64,000 nucleotides of DNA from Chamaelirium japonicum (Eukaryota; Streptophyta; Magnoliopsida; Liliales; Melanthiaceae): NCBI GenBank assembly GCA_947650365.1, contig OX393549.1:35248910-35312909 (forward strand). Direction: 5' to 3'. The position numbers and the translations under genes were made by a program. Every line of letters begins with the position of its first letter. The first letter of the stretch is position 1. Positions 24,865-52,531 of the stretch are shown here, piece after piece. Below the pieces are notes generated by a model. It worked only from the letters and a program-made list of their open reading frames with translations. It was not told the origin of the DNA and searched no databases.

Positions 24865-25110
24865 CTACCTGTAACTCATGACAGCATCCTCATTCGCCTG
24901 AGAGTAACCATAATCACATTAACCCCGAGATAGTCATGGAGACGTGCTCTTTAGAGAGAGAAGGGTAGGGCTAGAAAATTACGGTTTTGGCCAGCTCGTT
25001 CGCTTTCTCATTATCGAACCCAAGGGATGCCAATATCTTGTGACCAGCTGAATCCTCTTGAGCCCATATACCCAAAAGCATATGTGATGTAGTTACCTCT
25101 CCGCTATCAC
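24865..25110 (-). CDS. CLPT: ClpT exons 5 and 6
   Basis: Exon 5 (24983-25110) opens after AAATGCAG and encodes [15 protein letters not shown] through ELAKT. Its donor is ACC/GTAATT. Exon 6 (24865-24897) opens after TTACTCTCAG and encodes [10 protein letters not shown] then TAG. If the 85-bp intron 5 is retained, translation would end three codons later (VIF then TAG), replacing the usual tail. Confidence 0.9.
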
Positions 25111-52100: not shown

Positions 52101-52531
52101 TCAAATACCCAGTACGAATCACATCTCTATGAGACCAAGTGAAGGGGGCTTACTTCAGGGCTTTCTCAGCCGAAGCTCTCTCCGGATTCCTGAAAGAAAA
52201 TCAATGGTTAATAAAAAAAAAAAAAGATGACACGGAATACCCTGAGAAACAAGCCCAGAAAAGGGGTTTGCTTTGATGGGAAGATGCAGAGGGCTTACGC
52301 GGTGGGGAGCATCGAAAGAACCGTCGTCAGGGCGGGAAAAGCACGCCGGCGGTGGAACGGGGACGCCGGCCTGGCAGAGAGGGACAAGGGATCCGCCAGC
52401 AGCGAGGTTTTCAGACAGCGGTACTTGTGGCCCGAAGGCGGAGTGAGAGAGGGCCGGGTGGCGATCTTCAGTCCGGCGAGCGGATTTGGGGAGGTCGGGA
52501 TCGAGAAAGTGGAGAGCGTTCGAGCTGCCAT
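24865..52531 (-). CDS. CLPT: Chloroplast ClpT subunit of the Clp protease, 6 exons over 27.7 kb
   Basis: Exons, 5' to 3' on the minus strand: 52299-52531, 52154-52189, 51935-52044, 38773-38952, 24983-25110, 24865-24897. All five introns are GT...AG and the phases join without error, giving 239 aa, close to Arabidopsis CLPT1/CLPT2. Exon 1 ([10 protein letters not shown] start, Ser/Arg-rich, RRRAF) looks like a plastid transit peptide. Exons 3-5 make the Clp N-domain: [10 protein letters not shown], then [20 protein letters not shown], then [12 protein letters not shown] and [11 protein letters not shown], then LLGIW and [11 protein letters not shown]. It ends MSYR at TAG 24865-24867. Plant ClpT proteins bind the ClpP/R core in the stroma and help its assembly. 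Introns 1, 2 and 5 are 85-109 bp, while introns 3 (12,982 bp) and 4 (13,662 bp) are filled with transposons. No lesion is visible in any exon, so the gene is probably functional. CLPT1 or CLPT2 identity is not resolved. Confidence 0.93.
25344..25411. repeat. Compound (CT)n(CA)n microsatellite
   Basis: About 26 CT repeats followed by about 8 CA repeats, 230 bases inside intron 4 from exon 5. Confidence 0.95.
25412..26216. other. Intron 4 DNA without identified elements
   Basis: No element termini recognised. It includes a G-rich run at 25721-25736. Short open frames show no homology. Confidence 0.4.
26217..27277. mobile_element. Fold-back element interrupted by a hAT insertion
   Basis: The left arm (AGCTGGCAACCTATTTCGG, then TTTTAGAATG and TTTTTTGTGAGCATAAG) is mirrored by the right arm, ending CCACCAGCCTAT beside a (TA)n tract. 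Internal sub-hairpins centred near 26390 repeat the ATTCTAAAACTCCTAGGGGC word. Removing the hAT insertion 26567-27267 and one TSD copy leaves roughly 350 bp that can fold almost end to end. No protein is encoded. Confidence 0.65.
26567..27267. mobile_element. ACTAGTCGG-rich hAT element, copy 1
   Basis: The termini are CTATGCAGTCAAAGTCGG and, inverted, CTATGCTATCAAAGTCGG. An exact 8-bp TSD CCACCAGC lies at 26559-26566 and 27268-27275. The subterminal zones carry many CGACTAGTC words, and the middle is AT-rich. It is 701 bp and non-coding, so non-autonomous. Copy 2 is at 49006-49678 in the opposite orientation. Confidence 0.88.
27277..27352. repeat. (TA)n(GA)n microsatellite
   Basis: A TA tract of about 58 bases runs into a GA tract of about 18. 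It sits exactly between two fold-back elements. Confidence 0.95.
27360..27976. mobile_element. 617-bp near-perfect palindromic fold-back element
   Basis: The two arms of about 300 bp mirror each other from TAGGCTGCGGCGTGC to GCACGCCGCAGCCTA, with the centre near 27668 (AATCAAATTCCC). Each arm also holds its own hairpin, TTACTGTAGC/GCTACAGTAA. The element lies between two (TA)n tracts, and no other TSD is visible. There is no coding capacity. Confidence 0.85.
27986..28138. repeat. (AT)n microsatellite, 153 bp
   Basis: A pure AT alternation followed by CA(GA)n to 28157. Tyr-Ile translations on both strands are artefacts. Confidence 0.97.
28158..28268. mobile_element. 111-bp fold-back MITE between TA tracts
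   Basis: The left arm AGGGATGCTTAGGCGTGG and onward to GTCCGATGCACC mirrors the right arm GGTGCATCGGAC to CTAAGCATTCCT over about 40 bases. Both sides open onto AT/GA repeats. Confidence 0.75.
28281..28856. mobile_element. 576-bp fold-back element with internal hairpin repeats
   Basis: The terminal arms (GGTTGACAACCCAAAAT then GGAGGTAAATTTACCTCCC) are inverse repeats of about 50 bp. The interior has three successive hairpin units near 28370-28440, 28530-28620 and 28690-28775. Each is built on TGATTTTTTGTGAGGA(C/T)GATCA and its inverse. It is flanked by (TA)n on both sides. Confidence 0.75.
28857..28975. repeat. (AT)n microsatellite, 119 bp
   Basis: A pure AT alternation separating the fold-back element at 28281 from the sequence after 28976. 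The element-like segment 28976-29145 after it has one edge on the TA tract and a short hairpin of its own. Confidence 0.97.
29146..29498. other. Intron 4 DNA without identified elements
   Basis: GC-richer stretch with CCTTCG(A/G)CGGCAA words, resembling 7195-7345 weakly. No gene. Confidence 0.35.
29499..29541. repeat. (CA)n(TA)n microsatellite
   Basis: About 15 CA repeats followed by about 6 TA repeats, ending at the edge of the next fold-back element. Confidence 0.95.
29541..29797. mobile_element. 257-bp fold-back MITE between TA tracts
   Basis: Left AGGGGAGGGATACTCTTACT mirrors right AGTAAGAGTATCCCTCCCC. The inner words GATCCGGGCCCTCCAT and GGTGTCCGCATTAAATGC are also inverted. It is non-coding, with (TA)n on both flanks. 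Confidence 0.8.
29871..30257. mobile_element. 387-bp fold-back element between TA tracts
   Basis: Left GGTTAGGATCGGGGGACACT and following TTTTTGCACT mirror the right arm AGTGCAAAAACAGTGTCCTC to CTAACC. The inner arms contain GTGCTGATTTTTT words like those in the 28281 element. (TA)n lies at 29798-29853 on the left and 30258-30362 on the right, with a G-rich run after the left tract. Confidence 0.78.
30258..30362. repeat. (AT)n microsatellite, 105 bp
   Basis: The last TA tract in the chain of fold-back elements. Confidence 0.97.
30364..30800. repeat. Dispersed repeat with ACAATATTT periodicity (copy 1)
   Basis: GACAATATTTC(G/A) and GATAATATTTTG words recur every 20-30 bases up to 30575. These are followed by GTTTGTCGGCACTCGAACGG and a GC-rich end. 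The same order occurs at 34985-35250. The left edge abuts a TA tract in both. The class is unknown. Confidence 0.55.
31271..31430. mobile_element. Diverged relative of the 20932 MITE
   Basis: It starts GTTCGGATTTCCTCTAATCG and shares GCTGGAGTACGATTCA with the 20932 element. The right terminus is badly eroded. The gag-only LTR element inserted 25 bases beyond it. Confidence 0.5.
32149..32733 (-). CDS. Gag-like protein of the gag-only element
   Basis: A 194-aa frame whose first 70 residues resemble retrotransposon gag (Retrotrans_gag family): [20 protein letters not shown], then [17 protein letters not shown] Pro-rich stretch follows (residues about 92-140), then a tail without a zinc knuckle. 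Gag would package element RNA into particles. The start ATG at 32731-32733 is the first in frame, but the true protein could begin upstream because no stop-free context was resolved. The missing zinc knuckle may reflect truncation. Confidence 0.6.
   Translation of the reverse strand: MDAKMQGLIRCHQGNNSVYEYTSAFYRRMIRYGFSEKDFLAVVLYVRGLRSDIKGKFSSRSWSDMDEAYEITCEIEWELQQMVSPLVASTDESPPPAPPVEPPPPTELPPVVSLVDPSPPIPPPADELPPPEDLLSSAMLPPTADSFEDVSLAELQQIDFLGLDRLLVPTVFVQLYLRSGEPMFELSQRSDITI
33485..33551. repeat. (TTC)n and T-rich tract in the gag-only element
   Basis: A run of TTC repeats at about 33521-33544 lies amid T-rich runs that began near 33190. On the element's strand this is a purine-rich leader. 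Confidence 0.85.
34206..34391. mobile_element. 186-bp MITE-like inverted repeat
   Basis: Left CACAGCCGTCCAATGCACCC mirrors right GGGTGCAACGGACGACTGTG at about 20 of 23 positions. It lies just outside the gag-only element. No TSD was verified. Confidence 0.5.
34780..35250. repeat. Dispersed repeat, copy 2 (joins two repeat families)
   Basis: The left part (34780-35000, ending GACCGTTGTTTGTACCCCCC and a TA tract) matches 36880-37100. The right part (34985-35250, ACAATATTTCGAG series, then TCGAACGGGGTGG) matches 30364-30700. The composite suggests that the three loci derive from one longer element. Confidence 0.55.
35251..36879. other. Intron 4 DNA, GA-rich, no identified element
   Basis: It contains a GGTGGT run (35929-35951) and purine-rich GAGAGA stretches (35970-36125). 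The minus-strand frame 36243-36716 and others here lack recognisable domains. Confidence 0.4.
36880..37230. repeat. Dispersed repeat copy 3 ending in (TA)n(TG)n(GA)n
   Basis: 36880-37100 resembles 34780-35000 and ends in GACCGTTGTTTGTACCCCCC. Then follow (TA)n at 37102-37167, (TG)n at 37168-37208 and GA at 37211-37230. Confidence 0.65.
37417..37472. repeat. (ATT)n microsatellite
   Basis: About 18 ATT repeats. Confidence 0.95.
38773..38952 (-). CDS. CLPT: ClpT exon 4
   Basis: 180 bp between acceptor CTTTCAG and donor G/GTAATT. It completes the glycine of [10 protein letters not shown] and encodes the heart of the Clp N-domain through DEKLKSG. The exon stands alone with 13 kb of intron on each side. 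Confidence 0.93.
41341..41830. mobile_element. hAT MITE inserted in the copia 3' LTR
   Basis: The 490-bp insertion is flanked by exact 8-bp repeats ATGACCAT (41333-41340, 41831-41838). The termini CAAGGTTCTAAAAAGCG and, inverted, CAGTGTTCTAAAAAGCG are hAT-type. The subtermini repeat GCCTAGGCGG, and the middle has a (CCTGGTCCG)-like minisatellite at 41580-41700. Because it splits an otherwise complete LTR, it is younger than the copia insertion. Confidence 0.92.
41904..46304 (-). pseudogene. copia gag-pol polyprotein with stops and frameshifts
   Basis: The gag start is at ATG 46302-46304. Zinc knuckle [14 protein letters not shown] sits near 45500, protease [10 protein letters not shown] near 45160, integrase WHRRLG then HSDIWGP to NGVAERKHR in 43286-44764, RT with YVDDM near 42840, and RNase H with YSDADW, STEAEY and FCDNRS ending at 41904. 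Breaks seen: TGA 46044-46046, TAG 45606-45608, TGA 43286-43288 at a position normally Trp, and a stop near 42579. Apparent frameshifts lie near 45080, 44750 and 42980. The copy cannot make its own polyprotein. Confidence 0.92.
46684..46695 (-). other. Primer-binding site (initiator tRNA-Met) of the copia element
   Basis: TGGTATCAGAGC directly follows the 5' LTR on the minus strand. It is complementary to the 3' end of plant initiator tRNA-Met. Confidence 0.93.
48027..48312. mobile_element. hAT MITE rich in CCGGTACCGG
   Basis: Exact 8-bp TSD GACATCTC (48019-48026, 48313-48320). The termini are CAGGGTTTGAAATCTCG and, at the right, GTGATTTTGAACCTAG. The interior repeats CCGGTAC and CGGCC words and contains a T/G homopolymer stretch (48201-48236). 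It is 286 bp and non-coding. Confidence 0.82.
49006..49678. mobile_element. ACTAGTCGG-rich hAT element, copy 2 (inverted)
   Basis: Exact 8-bp TSD GCTACGCT (48998-49005, 49679-49686). The ends are CTATGCTATCAAAATCGG and, inverted, CTATGCAGTCAAAGTCGG. The whole element is the reverse complement of copy 1 (26567-27267), with visible colinearity through the AT-rich middle. 673 bp, non-coding. Confidence 0.9.
51935..52531 (-). CDS. CLPT: ClpT exons 1 to 3
   Basis: Exon 1 (52299-52531) encodes the transit peptide and ends ACCGC/GTAAGC. Exon 2 (52154-52189) is a 36-base microexon encoding [11 protein letters not shown] plus flanking partial codons, with acceptor TTTCTTTCAG and donor AA/GTAAGC. Exon 3 (51935-52044) opens after GGGAGCAG with the base that completes Lys and encodes WSARAIKSF to ILVE. 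The start ATG 52529-52531 was chosen because the residues after it look like a transit peptide. An upstream in-frame ATG exists at 52592-52594 but would add a Pro-rich stretch. Confidence 0.88.

Follow-up and report, generated by a model that had tools for sequence, protein, structure and literature searches.

A ClpT gene of Chamaelirium japonicum spanning 27.7 kb, with two long introns that carry transposon insertions

How does a small protein come to be encoded by six short exons dispersed over 27.7 kb, and is such a gene the only one of its kind in its genome? This question is raised by a ClpT gene located within a 64,000-nucleotide stretch of DNA from Chamaelirium japonicum (C1:35,248,910-35,312,909 of the 1.52-Gb assembly, which comprises 3,253 contigs; referred to here as the window). 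With a probability of about 0.93, we consider this locus to be the sole detectable ClpT gene, whose introns 3 and 4 have grown through repeated, partly recent insertions of long terminal repeat (LTR) elements and small DNA transposons. The explanation is founded on the exons and their reading frame, the family to which the product belongs, the failure to find another copy, and the identity and relative age of several of the insertions.

The gene runs along the minus strand from position 52531 to position 24865, and its six exons (233, 36, 110, 180, 128, and 33 bp for exons 1 to 6) form upon splicing a coding sequence of 720 nt, which is a single ATG-to-TAG frame of 239 amino acids. All five introns (109, 109, 12,982, 13,662, and 85 bp for introns 1 to 5) begin with GT and end with AG. 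A sequence-only reading of this DNA had joined six exons in phase through canonical splice sites; all of its coordinates proved exact, and its figures of 720 coding bases among 27,667 and of small introns 1, 2, and 5 were likewise reproduced. The parts of the gene which are relevant to the analysis are as follows.

52299..52531, minus strand: exon 1, with the ATG and a putative presequence rich in Ser, Thr, and Arg; amino acids 1-77 and part of 78
52154..52189, minus strand: exon 2, 36 bp
51935..52044, minus strand: exon 3, in which the first Clp_N repeat begins; the weak donor GTCTGT follows the exon
38953..51934, minus strand: intron 3, 12,982 bp, phase 1, within the codon of Gly127 (G/GA)
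38773..38952, minus strand: exon 4, 180 bp, bearing a conserved ClpT-type segment
25111..38772, minus strand: intron 4, 13,662 bp, phase 1, within the codon of Gly187 (G/GT)
24983..25110, minus strand: exon 5, 128 bp
24865..24897, minus strand: exon 6, with the stop codon TAG

The spliced protein matches a single Pfam family, PF02861 (Clp_N), in two stretches (E 3e-16 for the whole protein), and a sequence search of the PDB returned 37 matches at E<=0.001, the top two of which are the two ClpT chains. The best match, 4y0b, which we take to be Arabidopsis ClpT1 (At4g25370), aligned over residues 69-238 with an E value of 2.6e-71 (243.1 bits), followed by 4y0c (At4g12060, i.e., ClpT2) with an E value of 7.6e-68 (231.8 bits). 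The third entry in the list, a ClpC N-domain, reached an E value of 4.7e-15 (59.2 bits), representing a drop in score of more than 170 bits, and other ClpC N-domains were weaker. Furthermore, the MYFF-type segment preceding the second Clp_N repeat is nearly alike in ClpT, 4y0b, and 4y0c and is absent in three ClpC rows, and no AAA+ or protease domain was detected by Pfam in the protein, which stops at 239 amino acids. A fragment of ClpC was, therefore, rejected as a candidate: the product is closest to ClpT1 and ClpT2, it carries a ClpT-type segment that ClpC lacks, and it has no AAA+ domains. The double Clp_N domain and the lack of an AAA+ part are shared with Arabidopsis ClpT1 and ClpT2, as probably is the arrangement of a presequence followed by a mature domain; in the protein described here, similarity to 4y0b starts at amino acid 69, and amino acids 2-68, a putative plastid transit peptide, are, by inspection, rich in Ser, Thr, Pro, and Arg with one acidic residue. 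The comparison with CLPT1 and CLPT2 thus bears out the earlier proposal of a gene for a complete ClpT protein spread over 27.7 kb. All five exon junctions lie inside residues 69-238, where the alignment to 4y0b shows no slip of the reading frame, and it is this alignment across five of five junctions, together with the two Clp_N stretches, which argues that the chain of exons is not a product of chance.

The existence of a second gene was assessed by six-frame searches of the assembly, which may be incomplete and in which only the best candidates were scored. The spliced protein produced eight matches at E<=1, namely, four exons of the window, three ClpC-type loci (32-35% identical to the query), and one match at E 0.24. 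Arabidopsis ClpT2 produced 16 matches at E<=10: three fall on exons of the window (69, 75, and 54% identity), three on the ClpC-type loci just mentioned, and the remaining ten reach E 0.57 or worse. Neither query, within this scope, found a second ClpT in the assembly, and the candidate of a further copy was rejected; the compact, intact ClpT elsewhere which the sequence-only reading had envisaged as the possible expressed copy was also looked for here, and none was found. One gene, 27.7 kb in length, was thus found in Chamaelirium japonicum, whereas Arabidopsis possesses two ClpT genes. Clp_N genes are also carried by C6, C8, and C9 and were ClpB-like where inspected. On C9 (57135808-57147638), two Clp_N matches lie 11.5 kb apart on one strand, one of which was inspected and looks ClpB-like; this pair may represent a further gene that contains a long intron.

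Elements with LTRs or with inverted ends, together with target duplications, are present inside both long introns. Those of intron 3 are the following.

41252..46836, minus strand (that of ClpT): Ty1-copia LTR retrotransposon with integrase and reverse transcriptase domains (matches to RVT_2, rve, and SH3_retrovirus), 5.6 kb
41341..41830, no strand assigned: non-autonomous hAT-like element with inverted ends, 490 bp, nested in the left LTR of the copia element
49006..49681, no strand assigned: intron 3 copy of an element of approximately 0.7 kb, with inverted ends and the 5-bp target duplication ACGCT

The LTRs of the copia element measure 141 bp (46696-46836 and, interrupted by the nested insertion, 41252-41340 plus 41831-41890) and are identical over all aligned bases. 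The element is flanked by the 5-bp target duplication TAGAT and harbors the primer-binding site TGGTATCAGAGC, presumably of the initiator-Met type, and its reading frames are interrupted. Among 4,163 first-look candidates, its body is 93-96% identical in 39 of the 40 scored places, the 40th being the element itself. The nested 490-bp element, hAT-like in its inverted ends and 8-bp duplication, is flanked by a perfect copy of that duplication, ATGACCAT. Because the copia LTRs are identical and the 8-bp duplication is perfect, both insertions look very recent. In intron 4, two elements were delimited.

31455..34184, minus strand (that of ClpT): LTR element, 2.7 kb, with LTRs at 31455-31928 and 33710-34184
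26564..27267, no strand assigned: intron 4 copy of the element of approximately 0.7 kb, with inverted ends and the duplication CCACC

The LTR element of intron 4 has the target duplication CCCAT and the same primer site, TGGTATCAGAGC, as the copia element of intron 3. Its LTRs are identical at 463 of 474 aligned sites (eight transitions and three transversions; Kimura two-parameter distance of 0.0236), corresponding to an age of 0.9, 1.7, or 7.9 million years at substitution rates of 1.3e-8, 7e-9, or 1.5e-9, respectively. In the longer rows of the genome search, relatives of this element show 83-93% identity to it (47 rows including the element itself, with 36 of 790 candidates scored). The element of approximately 0.7 kb occurs once per long intron, in copies which are 86% identical and of opposite orientation, and a part of intron 4 is occupied by AT dinucleotide arrays and diverged repeats. 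Elements or repeats cover 6,265 of the 12,982 bp of intron 3 (48%) and 7,536 of the 13,662 bp of intron 4 (55%), of which structural elements alone represent 6,261 and 3,434 bp, respectively. The LTRs, target duplications, primer sites, and inverted ends uphold the earlier suggestion that both introns were expanded by transposons.

Intron 4 is of additional interest in that its position is shared with ClpC, the N-domain of which is homologous to ClpT (31% identity). In a comparison confined, among the Clp_N genes of this one species, to the three ClpC-type genes on C3, C5, and C10, intron 4 was found to cut the Gly187 codon after its first base, and an intron occurs in the same Gly codon and in the same phase, 1, in all three ClpC-type genes, whose exons end in ...EEARQLG, the codon for this Gly being split after its first base; the Gly columns align with that of ClpT. 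A coincidence of place and phase would be expected at roughly 1 in 200 (a rough estimate based on two ClpT introns and some 130 aligned codons), this chance being higher if AG/GT sites attract introns. The YFFSPEH segment is missing from ClpC, and no ClpC intron corresponds to intron 3 of ClpT. The following intron is apparently of phase 0 in both ClpT and ClpC, approximately three codons apart in a poorly aligned region, and was not counted. In two of the three ClpC-type genes, this next ClpC intron seemingly starts with GC (CAG/GCAAGT), and in the third with GT; GC-AG introns constitute a minor class.

The simplest reading of the shared Gly codon and phase is that plant ClpT was derived from a ClpC gene which already resided in the nucleus and carried introns, with intron 4 representing an ancestral ClpC intron swollen to 13.7 kb, a reading which we lean toward by a narrow balance of judgment. 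By this route, ClpT would have arisen once the cyanobacterial gene had reached the nucleus, through the excision of the N-domain from a ClpC duplicate. Green algae are stated to possess ClpT as well, with very low similarity to plant ClpT (PMC7966870), so that one or several origins of ClpT, of earlier or later date, may be envisaged from this comparison within one species. Titles and opening lines of abstracts on ClpT intron position or gene structure are silent on a shared intron, for which we make no claim of being unpublished. The shared intron provides a simple handle on the source of the plant ClpT subunit.

Several points tell against the proposed single gene with transposon-expanded introns. 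The donor of intron 3 (AGG/GTCTGT) is weak, and the acceptors are poor in pyrimidines (6 of 20 positions before exon 5 and 7 of 20 before exon 3), although these are caveats and not contradictions; an alternative donor GT located 4 bp downstream was rejected as it would break the reading frame, which favors the donor as first noted. The splicing of exon 3 to exon 4 and of exon 4 to exon 5 is predicted from conservation, and a diverged second ClpT copy may conceivably exist given the scope of the genome search. Regarding the origin of the intronic DNA, elements and repeats account for about half of the two long introns. A 200-kb genome sample served as the repeat control (20 pieces, all drawn from C1 and C2, including 6,536 N, and suited to detecting abundant families only), and it was matched by none of the 720 exon bases, by 12.9% of intron 3 and 15.8% of intron 4, and by 56.4% and 6.2% of the 5′ and 3′ flanks of the gene, respectively. 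Since mutual matches among the sample pieces cover a mean of 33% of their length (range 0 to 100%; middle values of 19% and 24%), introns 3 and 4 look no more repetitive than the ordinary genome in this small sample. The description of the introns as "mostly transposon" is, therefore, borne out only in part: 48% and 55% are assigned to elements or repeats, the rest is unassigned, and there is no excess over the sample.

The weak donor and the presence of a sense-oriented, very young copia element in intron 3 would also suit a decaying gene, in which the exons are intact while the insertions impair splicing or truncate the transcript, with ClpT function either diminished or provided by a copy that escaped detection. 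This we regard as very improbable: the frame is open throughout its 239 codons, the mature part shows conservation, no other copy was found in the assembly, and an only copy should work, as the loss of both ClpTs is seedling-lethal in Arabidopsis (PMC4243950). A pseudogene was also considered and was rejected. Two repeat-bearing gaps of 13 kb between exons are, moreover, places where assemblies can fail, and exons of separate loci might have been brought together by mis-assembly; yet exon order, strand, phase, and protein continuity agree, the window is without N, the intronic elements have matching target duplications, and intron 4 occupies exactly the place of the ClpC intron, which together render an artifact very improbable indeed. 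The preferred explanation thus remains a functional gene, three of whose introns would have stayed near 100 bp while two expanded by insertions. If the requirement observed in Arabidopsis holds, transcription of this single ClpT has to traverse two LTR elements which lie in the sense direction, and the transcript has to be spliced. Its primary transcript of approximately 28 kb would then be spliced normally, with both elements presumably kept from ending or diverting it, and heterochromatic silencing of the intronic elements, as in Arabidopsis, probably protects the transcript. ClpT proteins bind to the Clp core of chloroplasts, and by analogy with its Arabidopsis relatives the product is predicted to be an accessory subunit of the plastid ClpPR core protease, docking on the ClpP ring.

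The three ClpC-type genes of the same genome permit a first appraisal of how ordinary such introns are: the intron at the homologous place measures 1,013, 4,063, and 5,208 bp, where the absence of further exons in these spans is deduced from matching codon halves and not from transcripts. PF00574 was dropped as a control for intron length, as besides two rows (C1 and C2) it returned near-identical clpP matches on small contigs. These clpP exon matches occur on more than 100 small contigs (C265 and higher), and such scaffolds look like plastid DNA. Among 2,184 Chloranthus orthologues, 876 are longer than 20 kb; introns average approximately 1.66 kb in Lauraceae, 2.87 kb in Magnoliaceae, and 3.35 kb in Chloranthus, where LTRs appear to be the major contributor (PMC8626473). 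In Magnolia biondii, introns average approximately 2,774 bp with a median of 525 bp, an unevenness of the same pattern as in the ClpT gene (PMC7917104), and approximately 80% of the expanded intron space of grapevine consists of transposons (PMC3058033). LTR insertions lengthen introns in Chloranthus, magnoliids, and grapevine while coding length is unchanged, and the ClpT gene is no different in kind. The transposon-stretched ClpT gene is real but ordinary for a large plant genome, its rarity not being supported in view of the proportion of Chloranthus orthologues above 20 kb. Its significance lies in the fact that a span of 28 kb with 720 coding bases constitutes the only detectable copy of a gene which is, by analogy with Arabidopsis, essential; annotation of large plant genomes should, therefore, allow introns above 10 kb.

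The gene had also been described as invisible to scanning for open reading frames, which is accurate insofar as no frame of at least 120 amino acids in the window, the cutoff of the list employed, reads ClpT. However, a 78-codon frame begins at the exon 1 ATG and would be visible at a cutoff of 60 amino acids, and when Arabidopsis ClpT2 serves as the query of the six-frame search, exon 4 is recovered at an E value of 4.0e-23, exon 3 at 3.7e-13, and exon 5 at 4.2e-8. The gene is hard for lists of open reading frames but not for homology search.

Two further features of the window lie outside the gene. A LOB-domain (LBD) transcription-factor gene (Pfam LOB, E 1.5e-33) is located at 16868-17821 on the minus strand, approximately 7 kb past the 3′ end of ClpT, and the 5′ flank contains a tandem array at 57553-58905 with a unit of 65 bp present in approximately 19.5 copies (77% matches).

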